Notes under the pieces: generated by a model | Seen by the model: the letters and a program-made list of their open reading frames with translations, nothing else | Databases searched by the model: none | What the model was told of the DNA's origin: nothing | Source: Singulisphaera sp. GP187 | Lineage (GTDB): Bacteria; Planctomycetota; Phycisphaerae; Phycisphaerales; SM1A02 | Direction: 5' to 3' | Assembly: GCA_945868805.1 (NCBI GenBank) | Contig: CAMBMO010000004.1 | Location: forward strand, 1-64,000 | Length of the DNA stretch: 64,000 nucleotides | Position numbers and translations under genes: made by a program | Part shown: piece after piece, positions 40,503 to 49,133 of the stretch | How the letters are laid out: each line of letters starts with the position of its first letter | Numbering within the stretch: position 1 is the first letter of the stretch

Positions 40503-40549
40503 TTCCGCGAAAGCGGAACCGCGACTCGCGCCTCATACGCACTCGGCCG

Positions 40550-40559
40550 GTGCTACACT
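40550..40559 (+). promoter_or_regulatory. Candidate extended -10 element upstream of the subtilase-like gene
   Basis: GTGCTACACT, about 130 bases upstream of the ATG at 40688. No good -35 box is present. A 5'-UTR hairpin follows (GTCTCC at 40571-40576 with GGAGAC at 40582-40587). The 185-bp purD-subtilase region holds nothing else I can support. Confidence 0.35.
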
Positions 40560-40687
40560 CTGCACGGATTGTCTCCTTCGTGGAGACCGTTTCGAAGTGA
40601 GAAATTCCACTCGCCTCGATCGAGCAAAGTCGGTCGCTAGATTGTCGGTTCAACCAGAAAAGTCATTCAACAAGATTGGGAATTTTC

Positions 40688-43600
40688 ATGCGAGCATTTC
40701 TCATTGTGGTCTTGTCCATTTCGATCTGCGCATTTGACGCGACGGTCGCTGCAATCGATCGATCGATGGCGACGGTGTCTGCTTCTCAATCTCCGACAAA
40801 GGCGAACCGAACTGGTCGTCCCATCACAAAGGATCCAGCATCCCTCCAGATGCCGGTGAACTCTGACCGCGGCACTGCCGAACACACGGGCAGACTCATC
40901 GTCATGTACGACATGATGGTCGGCATGCGTGCATCACGCGTTGCTGGGGATCAGTTGTTCAGTCTGATTGGTCGGGATGCCAGTTCCAGCACGGGTGTCA
41001 TTTCGAAGTACGGTGCGACAATCCGTCAAGCCATCAATAAAGAATCATCGAAGCTTGATTCGCTCCGCACTCGTGGCGAGCAACGCAGTGGCAAGAGAAT
41101 GCCAGATCTCGCGTCGATGATGTATGTCGAAGGAATTGCGGCGAATCAACTGGTTCAGGCTGGAAGGGAATTCCTCGCGCTTGAGGAAGTCGCATGGGTC
41201 GAAATCGAAACCAAGACCGAACTCGCGAGTCCACAAGGCGACTGCCCTTCCTGCGAAGCACCTGCTGGAGCGGGAACCGCATGCGGAAATTGCGGACCAT
41301 GCCCCGACGCCCCGTCGTACGGTTGCAACTTTCCGCACGGTGGAACTGTCGACCCTGACAGTGGCTTGCCGGTGGGGTACTGTTCCGACATCCCGACGTG
41401 CACGACAGTCGTCGCAATTCGACCGTCCTGCGAAATCTGCTGGGATCAGGTGTGCGCCACGCTAGCCAATTTGGTCGGACCATCTGCATTCGGAGGTGAC
41501 GGATCGAGCGATACCTGCCTGCAGACAATTCTGCCTCCAACTTTGCCTGGTCCGGCGCCCTTTGACTGTCCATGGAGCCCGCTCGAAGAGTCGATCTTGA
41601 TTCAGACTTCGCCATTCCTGGAGCATGGCCTAGCAGGGTCATCAAATCCGGATTGTTGCAGAGCTGTCTGTTTCCAAGATGTGACATGTTGCACGATCTC
41701 TTGGGATGACGACTGCGCCGCGGTCGCACTTGGTTTTTATGACGATTGCTACTCAACCCCCGGATTGATTCTCGATGGTGGTTCACCGATCAATCCAAGC
41801 TTGCAAGTCCCTTCACCGCTCTTCGATGCGACATTGCTCGAGATTCCGCCGCCAGTCGATACGCCCGGAAGCGCCGCACTCGCGCTCTACACGACTACCG
41901 AGCGTTACCCCGATCCGTACAACGGTCCGAATCCGCCACCACCGCAACCACCTGGAGTGTTTGAGTCGTTCATCGATGTCACGGGCTTTCGAGGTGGAGG
42001 GCTGGATTTGGCGTCGATGGCGAGCTTGCTTCAGCAATTCCCTGGTTCGAACGGCCCTCAACTTCCAACAATCTCCGTCGCCGTCATCGAGCCATCCGCG
42101 CTCGTGAATCATGAAGACCTTATCGACGAAGTCACCGGCGTCACGAAGGTGACCGTTGAATCTGGACAGACCCCGCTCGTGATCAATGATCAGAGCAACC
42201 CACCACCCACTTTCTCTGGATCGTTCTATACGGCTCCCGCCCATGGAACAGCAACATTGGGTGTGCTTTTCGCGAACGACAACACAATTGGCGTCACTGG
42301 AATCGTGCCGAATGTAAAGGCTTTCTTCTTCCCATCTGAATCGTTTGAACAGCAGGGACGCTTGCTGACTGCGATGACGAATGCCATCGATCAGCTTTCA
42401 TCGATCACTGAGTCCGACCCGAATCCGGGGAATGTCATTGTCCTCCCAATATCCGAGAACGGACAACCACTCAATACGAGTCTCTCGCGCGCTGCCGTGA
42501 TCACGGCGGGGCTCGGCGCGGGAGTCACCTTCGTCATCTCAGCCGGAAACGCTTCGGCTGAAGTCGAGGAGCCCATTGAGGGGAGTGAAGAGGCAATCGT
42601 TGTCGGTGCGGTGTGGCCTGGATTCCAGTTCATCACAGCGCCTGGATCGGCGCGTGTCTACCCCGGGCTGAATTATTGCAGAGCAAACCTGAGTAACTAT
42701 TCGGGCGACGGCACCGCTGAGGTCAATGTCTCGGCGTGGGGCAAGGGCGTTTGCACATTGGGATACGGAGATCTTTTCTCTGGGGAGAACGGATCGGTTT
42801 CGACGAATCCCGATGTTGCTGCGTACGAGGTCAATCGCCTCCGAAGCTACACAGCGGTCTGGGGCGGAACGAGTGCGTCGGCAGCTCAGGTTGGTGGCGT
42901 TGCAGCACTCGCGCAAGCGCTTGCGAAACAGGTCTACGACGGACAGCCCTTCAGCCCAGCAAATGTTGAGGCAATCTTCAGCGATCCAAACAACATATTC
43001 GCGCAGTGCGGGCTCTCTACGGGAGATCAGCCTGAATTCGTCGACGCTTTGATCGGCAATACTGTCGGAGCAGGTGATGGAGATCCTTCGGATGTCGCAG
43101 GTTTTCCAAATCTCCGCCGACTTGGCGCGAGCGTCATCACCGGCGACTTCTACGACAACAACCAGTGCACATTCCAAATTGTCTGCGGATCCCTCCTCTC
43201 TGGATCGCAGTTCAGCATCCGAGAGATCGACAACAAGTTCGTGAAGGCACGCACTGCTCGCCCACGTTCGAATCAGTCCTCCTCCGGGCTTGGCCCCGCG
43301 CTCTTCTATCCGACCGGCAACCGAATTCTCGACGTCCAAGTGATCCGCACAACTGAGCTTCAATCTGCGGGCGATCTCACTGGCATCTCGGTGCGAGTCA
43401 CTGGGCAAACTGTCTCGGTATCAAGTGCGCTTGTCATCGCGTTCGTCTACAACAATGCAACGAATCGCTGGAATTTCATGCCACCGTTTCTTGGCCAGAT
43501 CACAGGCGCCAATGTAACGATGCCACAATTCGTGCTTCCTGCGTGTGTCTTCCCGAGCGACATCGGCATACCAACTCCAACAGGTGTTCAATTGGCTTGC

Positions 43601-43714
43601 CGGGTTGTTTTCATTCCCTTCGGCGGGCTGGGTCAATCTCAGATATGGCTCGACCAGATTGAGATCATGTACAACGATCCGCTCATCGACGCTGGAGCCC
43701 CATGCGGACCTTGA
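40688..43714 (+). CDS. Exported subtilase-like (S8) protein with Glu at the catalytic Asp position
   Basis: 1008 residues from the ATG at 40688, with a signal peptide (about 1-22). The N-terminal third carries a Cys-rich section (about 185-360) that includes a planctomycete-type module CCRAVC...TCCTISWDDDC near 322-345. The S8-like domain follows. VAVIEPS has Glu468 where active subtilases have Asp; HGTATLG supplies His519, SAGN supplies the oxyanion Asn621, and GTSAS supplies Ser729. The Pro that normally follows the Ser motif (GTSMAAP) is missing. The C-terminal ~250 residues form a beta-rich domain with no known signature. A Glu in the triad could mean altered or lost activity. A terminator follows the stop by five bases. 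The frame is open to a TTG at 40676, rejected. Confidence 0.82.
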   Translation: MRAFLIVVLSISICAFDATVAAIDRSMATVSASQSPTKANRTGRPITKDPASLQMPVNSDRGTAEHTGRLIVMYDMMVGMRASRVAGDQLFSLIGRDASSSTGVISKYGATIRQAINKESSKLDSLRTRGEQRSGKRMPDLASMMYVEGIAANQLVQAGREFLALEEVAWVEIETKTELASPQGDCPSCEAPAGAGTACGNCGPCPDAPSYGCNFPHGGTVDPDSGLPVGYCSDIPTCTTVVAIRPSCEICWDQVCATLANLVGPSAFGGDGSSDTCLQTILPPTLPGPAPFDCPWSPLEESILIQTSPFLEHGLAGSSNPDCCRAVCFQDVTCCTISWDDDCAAVALGFYDDCYSTPGLILDGGSPINPSLQVPSPLFDATLLEIPPPVDTPGSAALALYTTTERYPDPYNGPNPPPPQPPGVFESFIDVTGFRGGGLDLASMASLLQQFPGSNGPQLPTISVAVIEPSALVNHEDLIDEVTGVTKVTVESGQTPLVINDQSNPPPTFSGSFYTAPAHGTATLGVLFANDNTIGVTGIVPNVKAFFFPSESFEQQGRLLTAMTNAIDQLSSITESDPNPGNVIVLPISENGQPLNTSLSRAAVITAGLGAGVTFVISAGNASAEVEEPIEGSEEAIVVGAVWPGFQFITAPGSARVYPGLNYCRANLSNYSGDGTAEVNVSAWGKGVCTLGYGDLFSGENGSVSTNPDVAAYEVNRLRSYTAVWGGTSASAAQVGGVAALAQALAKQVYDGQPFSPANVEAIFSDPNNIFAQCGLSTGDQPEFVDALIGNTVGAGDGDPSDVAGFPNLRRLGASVITGDFYDNNQCTFQIVCGSLLSGSQFSIREIDNKFVKARTARPRSNQSSSGLGPALFYPTGNRILDVQVIRTTELQSAGDLTGISVRVTGQTVSVSSALVIAFVYNNATNRWNFMPPFLGQITGANVTMPQFVLPACVFPSDIGIPTPTGVQLACRVVFIPFGGLGQSQIWLDQIEIMYNDPLIDAGAPCGP

Positions 43715-43719
43715 TGAGG

Positions 43720-43738
43720 CGGACCATGTCCGTTTTTT
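43720..43738 (+). terminator. Intrinsic terminator after the subtilase-like gene
   Basis: CGGAC (43720-43724) and GTCCG (43728-43732) form a 5-bp stem with loop CAT, followed directly by six T residues (43733-43738). It begins five bases after the stop codon, so the subtilase-like gene is probably monocistronic. Confidence 0.8.
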
Positions 43739-43770
43739 CGCCAATATCGACCAAAATTGGCGAGGCTTTC

Positions 43771-43798
43771 TTGACAACTTCCGATCCCAACTCATACT
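43771..43798 (+). promoter_or_regulatory. Candidate promoter of the metzincin gene
   Basis: A perfect TTGACA (43771-43776), a 16-base spacer and CATACT (43793-43798). It lies downstream of the terminator at 43720 and about 115 bases upstream of the ATG at 43913, in the 198-bp intergenic region. Confidence 0.5.
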
Positions 43799-43912
43799 CA
43801 CCATGTTCTCTGCGGGGCGTCGCAGGATCATGTCGGTATGAGAATCTACAGATCTCTCGACCGAGCTCGTCATTGAGCAATTGATCCCACTCTCGCACGA
43901 AATGAATCTCAC

Positions 43913-46900
43913 ATGAAACTGAAGAACTTCCAATACTCAGCTATTGCATTTGCCTGCACCACCTTGTCCGCGTTGGCGATTACCAACGGCGGGACCGACA
44001 AGCATGTCGTGTCGATCAATACTGCATCTGGAGCGGCAAAGTCGAATGAATCAAGCACGGGTTCAACACGACCCTCCACTCCAAACGCGGTGCCAGTCGC
44101 ACGGGTCCTTCCAGCGCCGGGCGTTGGAAGACCCGACCTCGCTGGGCTTGGTCTCTCTGGGCTTGGTCTCTCTGGGCTTGGTCTGTCTGGAATGGGTTCG
44201 CCAAATCTCACCGCCAACTCGATCCGCGAGCTCAAGATCGGCGATGAGTTTTTGGTTCCGACACCCGATGGCGGCGCGCTCGACTTCGTCGTCGATCGAA
44301 AAGGATGGACAGGCGTTGACGAGAAGCAAATCTATCTCCGGGGTGGAGATACCGGTCAGTCGCTGTATGGGATCATAAGTCAGATTGGATCCAATCTGAC
44401 TGGATACTTCCTCCGTCGCGATGGATCTGCGTATGCGCTCACTCCTGCCGAATTAGGTCAAAACACACTAGGTCGGTACAAACTCACGCTTCGTCCGGAC
44501 TATGGCAAGTTTGAGTGCGGTGTCGGACGTGTGCTTCCGGGTCTGCCTGGCGTGGCTGGCATGTCGGACATGACAAACCTGAACGGATCCCGTCAGCAAC
44601 AGAACGAGGGCGGAATCGCGGGAGCCCCGATTACTCCGTGCGCTCCCGAGGTCGGTCCGTTTGGATTGCCACCAGGACTTGTCAAGGAAAGTGGGCTCAT
44701 CATCGATGTCCTGATCGTCTTTTCAGTCGATGCGAACGAGCTCCTTCTTGCCGCCGGAACAACGCCGTACGACCAGGCTGTCTTGACCGTAGCGCAGGCG
44801 AATCTCTCGATGCTGAATTCGACGAATCAACCTGCAACTGACTTCGACGGTCAGGACGTGAACAATAATTTGAACACCATCTGCGGATACGGGGCTTACC
44901 CAGAACCAGGCACTGTCACGAACCCGGTGACTGTCCCTCCTCCCGCCCCTCAACCTCCATTCAGCTGTGCCGATGGGCAATCACCGGCCGCGCACGAGGC
45001 GCTCCCTGGCGTCACGCCGGCGGAGACCGAAGTTTGCATGCCACGCCTTCGACTCGTAGGCGCGCTTGTGGCGGATGGCTTTTTCGGCGAAGAGGAACCA
45101 TTCGTCAGCACTGGATTCGCGGTTGATCTCGGACGGCTCTCGACTCCAGGCGATGGATACCTCGACTATGTCCTCGATTGGCGCGATGCGCTCGGCGCCG
45201 ATGAGGTCGCCCTCGTCGGAACTGGATATGGTTCAGACAGCGGCTTTGTCGGCTTGGCAAGCGTGATGCAAGATGCGAACAGCAATGCGCAGGCGCTCGC
45301 TGGACTCACCCTTCCGGCAAACCCTCATCCGATCGTCGACGCGCTCATTGTGCCGGCGGTCGGCGGGATCCTCGGTCCCTCGACCGTCTCGACACTTCAA
45401 GCATTTTCCGAATCTCCATTTTGCCTCCTCGACATCACAGTGCTCGGAGACACGGTGTACGCGCACGAACTTGGGCACAACCTTGGATGCCACCACGACC
45501 ACGACAACGCGGGACCACCAGGCGGAGTCCTTTTCCCTGATTCCTTCGGATTCGGTGATGCAGATTTCCGAACAGTGATGGCGTACCCGAACGGGACAAA
45601 TGTGAGACTTCCCGGCTTCTCCAATCCGGAGAAGTTGTGGCGGGATTACGGAGCGCCACAAGATGCCGACGAAGAGGCGGGCGATGAATTCGACTTCGAG
45701 TGCACGCAAGTTGATCAAACGGATGGTTCGGACGCCGAATACATTGATGAAACTGGAGTGCAGGACCCCGCCTCCGCCGCACCTGCCGCTGTCGTTCCAT
45801 GCGCGATTGCGAGTGACGACTTCCCGAATGACTCGGCGGCGATGGTGGTCGTGTCGGACTCCCAGATCGAAGACCAAGCGGACGAAAAGGCGAACAATGC
45901 TCGATCCATCTCGCAGGTGAAGTTCGACTTCGCCAAGTTTCGTTGCAGCATCTATCCCGTTGTTGACTGCAATGACAACGAGATCGACGATTTTATCGAA
46001 GCTGTCGACGGGATCGCCGAAGACTGCGATGCCGACGGAATTCCCGATGACTGCCAGGTCGCGATCGAGGATCCTGGGATTCCGAGTCCCATCGACTGCA
46101 ACCAGAACCAAATTCCAGATAGGTGCGATATTGCAAATGGGGATAGCCCGGATGTAAATGTCAATGGAATCCCGGACGAATGCGAAGACCAGACACTTCT
46201 GTTCCGCGAAAACTTTGAAAACATTCCATTTGGTACCTGCGATGGAGCGCTCCCAATCGCACGCATTTCGCCACTCGCGCTTGCTGAACTGCGCAGGCTT
46301 GACCCGACCTTCCCCGAGTACTTCGCGACAATCGAAAGTAGTGATCAAAACGGCGACACTTTGGATGGCGGATTCATATATACGGATCACATTCCATCGC
46401 TCTTCCAATACGGACTCGGACGAAATGGCAGCTACGCCGAGTGGGGTGGAATTCTTGGCCAAGGATTTGCAATGGCGTTCGGCACACGCGGATACGCGCA
46501 GCGTCTCGTCTTCAATTCGTTGACTGGCGATTTCCCGTCAGCGAACTCAGTGACTGGCGAAAGTGGTGTCACGACGATCTTGCTCGCCCGAAACTCGAAG
46601 GAGTCCCGTTTCTATATCAATGCGTGTGATTTCGATGAGTATTTTGACACCGAAGAGCTTTATCCTGGGACCTTTCCAGCGCTCATCAATTTCCCGTTTC
46701 TTCAAGCAAATGTGGTGACCGTTCAGGCGTTCTTTGTCGATCCTGGGACTGGCGCCGAAACTCTCAAGTTCGTTCAGTCGTACGACCTTCGCCCATTCCA
46801 GACACCGACCTACCCGACGGGATTCCCGACCTCCGTGATCGATGGCGGACCAGTCAGAATCGCCCAACCATTCGGCCAAGATCCGGATCCAGACTTTGCG

Positions 46901-47203
46901 TTCAACAAGATCGTGATTTCGGGTGCCTTCGTCGCGATTGACAACTTATCGTTCGACCTCGGGTTGACGATCGCCGAATGCCTCGCCGACGTGGCTGGTG
47001 GCGTTCCAGAAGGCGGACTCCCCACAGCGGACGGACGAGTTGGTGCGGAAGACCTCGTCCTCATCCTCGGCCTCTTCGGTGCTGATTCGAGCGACCCTCT
47101 GGGTGCCATCGCTGACGTGAATGACGATGACTCGGTCGATGCACTCGACCTCTTGGAAGTCCTCTCGAATTGGGGAGCCTGCCCCGGCGGAGCAGGGGGC
47201 TGA
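43913..47203 (+). CDS. Exported metzincin-type metalloprotease with Ca-binding and dockerin-like repeats
   Basis: 1096 residues. Signal peptide about 1-22; a Gly/Leu-rich linker with a triple GLGLS repeat near 78-92; then a zinc protease domain. The metzincin signature HELGHNLGCHHD has His518, Glu519, His522, Gly525 and His528, and the Met-turn VMAY places Met556, so this protease looks active. From about 680 to 765 acidic, Cys-containing repeats of the DCNxNxIPDxC type occur, thrombospondin-3-like calcium-binding units. A beta-rich domain (about 775-1030) follows, then a dockerin-like pair (DGRVGAEDLVLIL and DVNDDDSVDALDLLEVL) at about 1040-1085 ending WGACPGG. Such C-termini are frequent in planctomycete exported proteins. 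Substrate unknown; reprolysin/M12-like assignment rests on the motif. Confidence 0.87.
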   Translation: MKLKNFQYSAIAFACTTLSALAITNGGTDKHVVSINTASGAAKSNESSTGSTRPSTPNAVPVARVLPAPGVGRPDLAGLGLSGLGLSGLGLSGMGSPNLTANSIRELKIGDEFLVPTPDGGALDFVVDRKGWTGVDEKQIYLRGGDTGQSLYGIISQIGSNLTGYFLRRDGSAYALTPAELGQNTLGRYKLTLRPDYGKFECGVGRVLPGLPGVAGMSDMTNLNGSRQQQNEGGIAGAPITPCAPEVGPFGLPPGLVKESGLIIDVLIVFSVDANELLLAAGTTPYDQAVLTVAQANLSMLNSTNQPATDFDGQDVNNNLNTICGYGAYPEPGTVTNPVTVPPPAPQPPFSCADGQSPAAHEALPGVTPAETEVCMPRLRLVGALVADGFFGEEEPFVSTGFAVDLGRLSTPGDGYLDYVLDWRDALGADEVALVGTGYGSDSGFVGLASVMQDANSNAQALAGLTLPANPHPIVDALIVPAVGGILGPSTVSTLQAFSESPFCLLDITVLGDTVYAHELGHNLGCHHDHDNAGPPGGVLFPDSFGFGDADFRTVMAYPNGTNVRLPGFSNPEKLWRDYGAPQDADEEAGDEFDFECTQVDQTDGSDAEYIDETGVQDPASAAPAAVVPCAIASDDFPNDSAAMVVVSDSQIEDQADEKANNARSISQVKFDFAKFRCSIYPVVDCNDNEIDDFIEAVDGIAEDCDADGIPDDCQVAIEDPGIPSPIDCNQNQIPDRCDIANGDSPDVNVNGIPDECEDQTLLFRENFENIPFGTCDGALPIARISPLALAELRRLDPTFPEYFATIESSDQNGDTLDGGFIYTDHIPSLFQYGLGRNGSYAEWGGILGQGFAMAFGTRGYAQRLVFNSLTGDFPSANSVTGESGVTTILLARNSKESRFYINACDFDEYFDTEELYPGTFPALINFPFLQANVVTVQAFFVDPGTGAETLKFVQSYDLRPFQTPTYPTGFPTSVIDGGPVRIAQPFGQDPDPDFAFNKIVISGAFVAIDNLSFDLGLTIAECLADVAGGVPEGGLPTADGRVGAEDLVLILGLFGADSSDPLGAIADVNDDDSVDALDLLEVLSNWGACPGGAGG
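44143..44187. repeat. In-frame 15-bp tandem repeat, three copies
   Basis: The unit tgggcttggtctctc occurs at 44143, 44158 and (one mismatch) 44173. It encodes GLGLS repeats in the linker between signal peptide and protease domain of the metzincin. Being a multiple of three, copy-number change keeps the frame. Confidence 0.92.
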
Positions 47204-47282
47204 TCGAAGCTGACAATCTTTTCGTAACACCCAACGCAAAACCTAACTACTCAGACCCGAAGCAAAGACAAGAACCACAACC

Positions 47283-49133
47283 ATGATGACCCCAATTCTT
47301 TTTGCAGTCGAACTCATGCTCGTCCAGCAATTTGGTGACGAAAACCCAGTGATGAGTGCCAGACAGGATGCGGTCCTTGTCGTGCATGAGAAAACGGCTC
47401 GTGGCGCGACCGAACAGGTCTCGGTCTCGATCCCGTCATCGGAAATCGGATTTCCTCCGGTGAGTTTGACAGAGCTCCGATCGATGGTGCAATCGGTATC
47501 GGATGTTGTGCAGTCACCTGTGATGAGTTTTGAGATCGATCGGACGATCGGGGGACACCCCAAGGGCAAGGGCGACAATGAAGGTGGCGACGAGGGCGGG
47601 ATCGCTGGAGTCGGAGTGCCATTCGACCTGCAGTTCGTTGTGACGACGGGCTCGATCGTCCCACCGGCACAGATGGTGCAATTCACAAATGCAGTCGAGG
47701 ACGTCGAGGCGTACATCGAGTCACATGTACTGACGAAGGATGTCGTCCTGCGAATCATGCTGGCCTATGTTGCGCTTCCTTCCGGCCGATTGGGAGTGAC
47801 GACCGCGAGGTACTCCGTTGAGAAGTTCGGAGACGTCGCCGCGGGTTTTGAAGTCATCAATGTGACTGGCGATGCGTTCGTGTTGCCTGAGAACGAGATC
47901 AACCCAGTTCCATTGCGTGCAAGCATCCCGGTTCGCTATAGCGGTGTTTCGACATCTGCGACTCCCGAGAACAGAATCTATGTGGTTCGTCCACTGAAAT
48001 TGGCGCTCGGCTTGCCCGATCCCGCGGGCGTCGGAATTCCGCTCGACGATGGGCTTATCACCCTGAGCTCGGCAATCCAGTGGGACTTCGACCCATCGAA
48101 CGGCCTGCAATTCGGTCAGAGCTTGCTCTACTCCTTTCAAGACCACTTGATCCGCGAGCTTTGTCAGGCGATGGGATTCGTGGCAGGAGCGGATTTTCTC
48201 GTGCGCGATTGCACAGTCATGGACCTTTTTCGCTTTCAGCAAGATGTCATCTTGGAGGACTATCTCGTCAACAACCCAGCGAATGTCTTTGGAGGGGATC
48301 CCGCAGTCACCTGCGCGCAGTTCTCGACCTATTACGAAGGCGTGATTTTCGCCGGTCAGAACTTCAGCGGTGCGCTCCCGGGTTGGGCTCTTGATTACAA
48401 CCCAGGATTGAACAAGACGCTTGTTTCAGACGCTGCGGCATTTGGAATAACGACCGGTCAGATGTTGACTGCCGCCGGCGCTGACACGCCGAACGCGACT
48501 TCGTTTCTCGCGAGCCAATTTCACGGCATCCTCAGTGGCGGAAACAAAAACGCATTTGATGATTCTGAACTCGTTGCTCCGCTTGTGATCCCTATGGCTC
48601 AGCGGACTTTCGCGTATCCCGATGGTGCGGCGCAGACAATCGTGACCGCCGGCGCAGGTGCTGGCAAGTGCGTCGTCGTGGACTTCCGCGGGAGGATCCC
48701 CGCTGCCGGCGCGAATCCACAGATCAACAATGACTTCCTCGGGGCAATGCCGAGAACGGTTGCGCGAAACAGTGTCGCCAACAAGTCGATCTTGAACTTC
48801 GTGAGTAACACCTTCGGAGTCGACTTCGACTTCGAAATGGAAATGTACGACGGCTCGCCCGTTCGAGGCGCCTTCGTGAAGCAAGATGAACTTGCTGACC
48901 TTGGAACCCGCTGCCTCATGGGGAAGTCCATTGGCAAGGGGAACACTTTTTACACGAGAGAGATTTGCTCTTACACGCTCTCTCCAAACAATCGGGTGCC
49001 ACTTGGCACACTTGCCGATTTCTTGACGCGGCGCGAGTGGCTCGCTCTCGACGCAATGGGTTGGAATGTCGACATGTCGATTCTCGACGACACCGACGAG
49101 GGTGATACCGAAGTCGACCTCGACTGCCCATAA
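47283..49133 (+). CDS. Zincin-like protein with degenerate HExxH (predicted inactive)
   Basis: 616 residues; an N-terminal hydrophobic stretch (about 3-15) may be a signal peptide. A central region resembles the planctomycete zincin family in which a zinc helix H-E-x-G-H-x-L-G-F is followed by a MDLFRF-like motif. Here the helix reads RELCQAMGF (291-299): Glu292 remains, but the two zinc histidines are Arg291 and Gln295. The downstream VMDLFRF is conserved. The C-terminal half has the expected layout, ending with a REWLALDAMGWNV segment typical of such proteins. The DNA is uninterrupted, so this is a coding change and not a frameshift. Likely a non-catalytic homologue with a binding role (inference). 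Family identity is from memory of motifs; moderate confidence. Confidence 0.7.
   Translation: MMTPILFAVELMLVQQFGDENPVMSARQDAVLVVHEKTARGATEQVSVSIPSSEIGFPPVSLTELRSMVQSVSDVVQSPVMSFEIDRTIGGHPKGKGDNEGGDEGGIAGVGVPFDLQFVVTTGSIVPPAQMVQFTNAVEDVEAYIESHVLTKDVVLRIMLAYVALPSGRLGVTTARYSVEKFGDVAAGFEVINVTGDAFVLPENEINPVPLRASIPVRYSGVSTSATPENRIYVVRPLKLALGLPDPAGVGIPLDDGLITLSSAIQWDFDPSNGLQFGQSLLYSFQDHLIRELCQAMGFVAGADFLVRDCTVMDLFRFQQDVILEDYLVNNPANVFGGDPAVTCAQFSTYYEGVIFAGQNFSGALPGWALDYNPGLNKTLVSDAAAFGITTGQMLTAAGADTPNATSFLASQFHGILSGGNKNAFDDSELVAPLVIPMAQRTFAYPDGAAQTIVTAGAGAGKCVVVDFRGRIPAAGANPQINNDFLGAMPRTVARNSVANKSILNFVSNTFGVDFDFEMEMYDGSPVRGAFVKQDELADLGTRCLMGKSIGKGNTFYTREICSYTLSPNNRVPLGTLADFLTRREWLALDAMGWNVDMSILDDTDEGDTEVDLDCP

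Follow-up and report, generated by a model that had tools for sequence, protein, structure and literature searches.

Do three neighbouring genes for protease-like proteins, with catalytic sites in different states, form one working set, and is the member with an altered catalytic triad really inactive? The question is raised by a 64,000-nucleotide stretch (positions 1 to 64,000 of the forward strand of contig CAMBMO010000004.1, assembly GCA_945868805.1, Singulisphaera sp. GP187; hereafter the window), which belongs to a 2.5 Mb draft genome of 95.8% completeness. The genes, here called P1, P2 and P3, are all encoded on the + strand, flanked by purD and pgeF, and together span 40688-49133. An initial annotation, made from the sequence alone, had described them as three exported members of protease families with mixed catalytic status, and had suggested that active and inactive members cooperate. 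Domain matches and a reading of the individual residues bore out the mixed states of the catalytic sites. What makes the locus most interesting proved to be the way in which Glu and Asp replace each other in the P1 triad, rather than cooperation.

P1 (40688-43714; ATG at 40688, with a longer frame from a TTG at 40676) is a putative secreted pro-subtilase, as indicated by its Pfam match, structure model and residue alignment. It scores 51.7 bits against PF00082 (cut-off 21.8), and the alignment assigns the catalytic His to His519 (42242-42244), the oxyanion-hole Asn to Asn621 (42548-42550) and the catalytic Ser to Ser729 (42872-42874). The altered triad that had been announced is real and consists of one change, Asp to Glu: the position of the catalytic Asp is occupied by Glu468 (codon GAG, 42089-42091). 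With the catalytic Asp absent and His, Asn and Ser present, P1 is described here, on the basis of its sequence, as a Glu variant and not as a canonical member of family S8. The Asp of the subtilisin triad is generally regarded as invariant, and a literature search, which covered the subscription literature only in part, found no publication on Glu-triad subtilases. Other planctomycete subtilases were taken from 31 loci (mostly best-scoring ones); seven were unreadable at this position and the other 24 all have Asp. So unusual a residue favours an alternative in which P1 is a pseudo-protease: Glu would disable turnover, His and Ser would have structural or ligand-binding roles, and P2 would be the lone active member. 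Pseudo-subtilases that work beside an active one are indeed known (PMC6636752). We consider this alternative unlikely, for reasons that lie in the P1 family itself.

Residues were surveyed in 118 P1-like catalytic cores from 116 genomes of the family; 144 genomes had a profile match, and those that gave no core include matches lying off the acid region. The counts rest on a profile model (A1) itself built from Glu and Asp rows; none was taken from an earlier contig scan with two peptide patterns, one of which restricted the acid to Glu or Asp. The combination Glu-His-Asn-Ser was found 60 times and Asp-His-Asn-Ser 32 times. To these add nine Glu rows with gaps or a changed Asn, three Asp rows with gaps, 13 other combinations, and one row (G084b) in which both acid and His are unreadable. 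The 13 are nine His-changed rows and four Asp rows that keep His with a changed Asn (two of them with a changed Ser as well). His is kept in 108 rows, and in these the acid position holds either Glu (69 rows) or Asp (39 rows), and nothing else. The Glu rows have His in 69/69, Ser in 63/63 readable cases and Asn in 65/68. The picture is the same for the 72 purD-linked rows, i.e. those whose fetched sequence also contains purD (among the unlinked ones are contig edges as well as homologs elsewhere): Glu in 48, Asp in 24, His in all 72, and Ser in 64/64, Ser being unreadable in eight purD-linked rows and in one other. Of the 256 well-filled columns of the Glu class only 16 do not vary, including those of His519 and Ser729 (and that of Glu468, by definition of the class).

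A clade of nine long P1 homologs (G114, G072, G240, G241, G232, G236, G230, G157 and G233) lacks His, Asn and Ser. There, His is replaced by Arg or Ser, Asn by Asp in 9/9, and Ser by Val, Ile, Lys or Leu, with Asp, Ala or Gly at the acid position. These proteins are likely to be pseudo-subtilases inside the same family, and, as far as sequence can tell, this joint loss of His, Asn and Ser is what decay looks like in it. The contrast with the Glu class, where His and Ser are invariant, argues against a pseudo-protease P1.

A second argument comes from phylogeny. Quick trees were built from 113 of the 118 cores (shorter rows and one contig half were omitted). On a tree made without the acid column, the 97 rows with intact His and Ser require at least six interchanges between Glu and Asp. 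When the tree is rooted with 12 ordinary Asp subtilases (an outgroup picked by an Asp-requiring pattern, and uninformative on the frequency of Asp), the parsimony minimum is three Asp-to-Glu and two Glu-to-Asp changes. The two acids differ even inside single genera (g2 and g3). Apparent returns to Asp with an intact site suggest that the Glu stage was not a dead one. Since Glu recurs in the family with its partner residues kept, the altered triad of the initial annotation should not be read as an inactive one.

In the CspBA/CspC system of Clostridioides difficile germination, the inactive subtilases have two catalytic residues changed (PMC6636752); CspA and CspC thus differ from P1, in which one residue is changed, conservatively. 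The likeness lies in protease sets of mixed catalytic status, and the Csp members, all subtilases, work together; the inactive members there are subtilases, whereas here the inactive member is the metalloprotease relative P3. A natural Ser-His-Glu triad exists in the aspartyl dipeptidase PepE of family S51 (PMC4826915): its triad is of the Glu type, as in P1, but its fold is unique and not that of subtilisin, to go by a title cited in the same article.

The architecture of P1 looks like that of a zymogen: an ordinary-looking signal peptide (by eye), a propeptide-like domain (residues ~60-180), a Cys-rich insert, an S8 catalytic domain (~376-818) and a C-terminal beta domain. The structure model (mean predicted local distance difference test score, pLDDT, 75.2; predicted template modelling score 0.77) has subtilases as its best structural matches (3lpc: Z score 28.9, root mean square deviation 3.2, 293 residues). 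It aligns with pro-subtilisins from residue 68 on (3whi_B: Z 28.6, 335 residues), although the propeptide region has no Pfam match up to an expectation value (E) of 1. With S8 peptidases such as AprB2, pro-subtilisin E and Tk-subtilisin, P1 shares the fold (as modelled), the His, the oxyanion Asn, the Ser and, putatively, a propeptide-like domain; it differs from them by the Glu, the Cys-rich insert before the catalytic domain and the C-terminal beta domain. A retained propeptide-like domain together with a modified but complete triad would also suit a protein that cleaves itself once and stays capped by its propeptide, turnover being slowed by Glu and its main role being binding. CspB offers a precedent: after cleavage, its propeptide stays bound and covers the active site (PMC6636752). 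We find such a capped P1 quite improbable: Asp-type relatives occupy the same locus behind purD, so that no slow-turnover role follows from the sequence.

Two side observations concern P1. The Cys-rich module (CC...WDxxC pattern, ~41250-41760) recurs in other, planctomycete proteins of these genomes, as short matches to P1 residues ~312-359, and has no Pfam match. Upstream of the gene (~40503-40687), a TGNTACACT-like stretch that recurs in several genomes of the genus might be an extended -10 promoter that serves P1.

P2 (43913-47203) is an M12B-like metzincin with Cys/Asp-rich repeats and a dockerin-like tail, as judged by Pfam and alignment. It scores 35.9 bits against Reprolysin_5 (cut-off 27) and starts with an ordinary-looking signal peptide (by eye). 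The complete zinc motif and Met-turn ascribed to it are there, as HELGHNLGCHH (45464-45496) and VMAY, and 13 of the 14 rows readable here retain the whole zinc motif; only a shortened copy in G126 departs from it, with Glu replaced by Lys. P2 thus shares zinc motif, Met-turn and Pfam match with reprolysin-like metzincins (M12B; Mep72-like) and differs by its planctomycete repeats and its tail. Whole-length relatives were found only in the genus and in G084 (121 genomes, up to six candidates scored in each), G223 and G265 being added later. The tail matches the dockerin family PF00404 at 15.4 bits, below the cut-off of 22.9, and cohesin (PF00963) has no match anywhere in the draft genome. The lack of a Pfam cohesin argues against the cohesin-like partner that the initial annotation suggested looking for, and a cohesin-dockerin assembly was rejected.

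P3 (47283-49133) is, by sequence, a pseudo-metalloprotease related to NF038122. It was assessed by family profile, alignment and model: the protein itself matches NF038122 at 50.1 bits, below the family cut-off of 80, and 20 of the 21 members of its alignment (A3) match at E ≤ 0.001. The destroyed zinc site is confirmed: RELCQ (48153-48167) stands in place of HExxH. In the 16 readable rows of the P3 cluster, the first zinc His is Arg in all 16, the Glu is kept in 12, and the second His is Gln in 11 and His in none. P3 homologs outside the cluster have an intact HExxH in 11/11 read, two weak matches in G128 not being among them. The loss, as read from these rows, probably occurred already in the common stock of the cluster. 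Identity between P3 of the window genome and that of eight others of the genus is maintained at 46-65%, which argues that P3 is retained for a role other than zinc catalysis.

The structure model of P3 is of middling quality (mean pLDDT 65.6), and Foldseek alone returned nothing significant with it (best E 1.1); a second aligner run on the Foldseek list found its core to resemble matrixins (Z 9.7 for 1hv5_A, and 8.0). Compared with the NF038122 metalloproteases and the matrixins (MMP-11, MMP-7), P3 is thus a below-cut-off match with a matrixin-like model, in a cluster without the zinc site. Export, attributed to all three proteins, is plausible for P1 and P2 from their signal peptides and is unproven for P3, whose N-terminus (47283-47340) is hydrophobic, with no positive charge and with a Glu; several homologs in the genus share this trait (as ATELLLL). 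P3 varies in length and number: the proteins of G087 (L087:2038-4512) and G136 (L261:5044-7485) are ~200 residues longer than that of the window, part at least of the extra length in G087 being a Gly/Thr-rich, repeat-like insert, and a second, more diverged P3 occurs in G105, G129 and G131. Plasmid carriage was rejected: P3 had no match in 72,556 plasmid records.

Are the three genes a set? One check suggested in the initial annotation was whether the genes remain neighbours in relatives. They do, across the genus and in two further genera, so that this test did not refute the set. P1 matches (E ≤ 1e-20) were obtained in 16 of the 19 genomes of the genus. P2 comes next in 12, pgeF directly follows P1 in G137 and G138, and the contig ends at P1 in G134 and G135; P2 therefore adjoins P1 in 12 of the 14 loci readable past P1. 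P3 follows P2 in 10 of these 12 loci, the contig ending in the other two (G127 and G140); the P3 of G126 is a 98-residue piece, and the P2 of G087 is split over two contigs. Outside the genus, the block is found in G084 (two P3 copies), G223 (P2, then contig end) and G265 (two P3 copies; its contig is that of named locus L116). A genome-wide search of G137, G138, G128, G132, G139, G134 and G135 for P3 gave only the two weak G128 matches (36-38% identity), and one with the central part of P2 gave short matches only, at E 2.6e-9 or weaker. To judge by their drafts, G137 and G138 lack P2-P3; in G134 and G135 it is either absent or lost in an assembly gap.

On a wider scale, 42 of the 45 named P1 loci have the end of purD less than 0.5 kb ahead of P1 (in four loci the mechanically chosen P1 start overlaps purD), and the other three start at a contig edge. 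P2 is present in 11 of the 45 and absent from 24 in spite of at least 3 kb of sequence past P1; the remaining 10 are too short. Most additional P1 loci were fetched only ~1 kb past P1, and absence is claimed from the longer loci only. Because 24 named loci have P1 without P2, against 11 with it, P1 is the older resident, fixed behind purD, and P2-P3 the later unit.

A promoter of its own sets this unit apart. The TTGACA promoter announced ahead of P2 was found by scan (43771-43798, + strand: TTGACA, 16 bases, CATACT; 10 of 12 matches) and its first box is conserved. Just downstream lies a hairpin, CTGCG-GGGCGT-CGCAG (43810-43825, + strand), picked up by conservation and pattern search. Together they make up a conserved element between P1 and P2, CTGCGGGGCGTCGCAG (43771-43825), that has no Rfam match: over 43600-44100 the only match (15.9 bits, where the gathering score is 70) is not at the hairpin. 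All 15 P1-P2 gaps examined have a TTGA[C/G] box (TTGAG in G126) with a poorly conserved -10-like box, and all 15 have the hairpin core CTGC-x-GGGCG[A/T]-x-GC, which is degenerate in G223 and has a single broken pair in G126; for G130, the P2 start picked mechanically overlaps the element. Of the 15 gaps, 14 have TTGAC[A/T]-like hexamers, versus 2.5 expected from simple letter shuffling. A model of the element gave one strong match (E ≤ 1.3e-11) in 12 of the 19 genomes of the genus, by position in the P1-P2 gap every time, and no match at any other place was stronger than E 0.016 (up to 150 candidates scored per genome); G137 and G138, which lack P2-P3, have no strong match. Most likely the element supplies the promoter and 5' leader for P2-P3, its hairpin acting either as RNA or as a DNA operator. 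Covariation in the hairpin is thin (two pairs changed on both sides, in one sequence each). That the hairpin is a repeated genomic element was rejected, the strict pattern occurring once in the window genome; a scan of viral contigs found none, and pattern matches in L324 and L328 have no P1, P2, P3 or flanking gene nearby.

With a conserved promoter ahead of P2-P3 and P1 standing alone in many genomes, a single three-gene operon was rejected. The trio as a set thus survives as a kept gene order, and otherwise resolves into an old gene plus a two-gene add-on. The terminators noted after P1 (CGGAC-CAT-GTCCG-T6, 43720-43738, by eye) and after P3 (found by script) are present in the window, but by the script they are not conserved, being recovered in only one of the 15 gaps between P1 and P2 and in four of the 11 stretches read past P3; the generic scan gave no excess over expectation, either for terminators (11 versus 10.1) or for promoters (4 versus 3.8).

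The same observations feed a third alternative, that the three genes are functionally unlinked and that P2-P3 happened to land behind P1 in a slowly rearranging region: P1 does without P2-P3 in the 24 loci, the unit has its own promoter, and the neighbourhood trxB, purD, dedA and sucC keeps its order irrespective of the trio. Against this stand the identical order and strand in three genera, and the fact that P2 and P3 are both gone from the G137 and G138 locus, with divergence of P1. The ratio of nonsynonymous divergence (dN) in P1 to that in purD, relative to the window genome, lies between 1.3 and 1.8 for ten genomes, namely G135 and nine that have P2, and at 3.0 for each of G137 and G138. 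For the G137-G138 pair it is again 3.0, with P1 dN at 0.21 and synonymous divergence (dS) at 1.17, i.e. still under purifying selection; dS is saturated in most genome pairs. Other pairs gave 1.7 (G105-G129), ~1.3 (G048-G133), 2.8 (G105-G137) and 2.5 (G105-G138). P1 is therefore about twice as fast relative to purD where P2-P3 has been lost, the one indirect sign that the members cooperate. We regard a lack of any functional link as rather unlikely.

The account that we prefer, and which we hold to be evenly poised between right and wrong, is that P1 is a catalytic Glu-His-Ser zymogen, joined later by a unit made of an active metzincin, P2, and a pseudo-protease partner, P3. P1 would be secreted and would use Glu as its triad acid, being catalytic at least for its own maturation; we infer this role of Glu from conservation alone. 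P2-P3 would have been inserted, separately promoted, between P1 and pgeF, with P2 as an active protease and P3 as a metzincin-fold protein kept for binding, as a regulator, inhibitor or substrate holder. Mature P1 would then cleave or activate the P2/P3 pair, and the extracellular proteolysis by P2 would be limited or aimed by P3; the three proteins may come into physical contact. A broader proposal, that an entire clade of subtilases uses a Glu-His-Ser triad, its acid switching repeatedly between Asp and Glu within one bacterial family and even inside genera, and that in one sublineage such an enzyme drives an active metzincin and its dead cousin outside the cell, under a dedicated promoter-hairpin of which each genome has one copy, is put forward more tentatively, its chances falling somewhat short of even.

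Several points weigh against the preferred account. With one methylene more than Asp, Glu may hold the His poorly, and the conserved His and Ser could serve the fold or the binding of a ligand. Three Glu rows have Ser or Gly in place of the oxyanion Asn. The propeptide is no proof of activity, because the inactive relative G114 also matches the N-terminal (propeptide) region of P1. The deep forks of the trees on which the Glu/Asp changes were counted are weakly supported. An N-terminus unlike an ordinary signal peptide makes the export of P3 uncertain. The loss of P2-P3 behind the divergence signal is one event, and a control pair without such a loss, G105-G136, reached a ratio of 2.1. Finally, the P1 of G135 is unaccelerated (ratio 1.3), yet the genome-wide search there gave no P3 and nothing more than short, weak matches to P2: should P2-P3 really be missing from this genome, the link between its loss and P1 divergence fails.

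P3, whose zinc site is lost throughout its cluster, provides a clean case of a pseudo-protease beside a relative with an intact site. For P1 the lesson is one of caution, one conservative change being insufficient to call a protease dead. The repeated exchange of Asp and Glu with the other active-site residues kept amounts to a natural experiment on how strict the requirement for the triad acid is, in which matched Asp and Glu homologs are available at one locus and the decayed relatives serve as controls.

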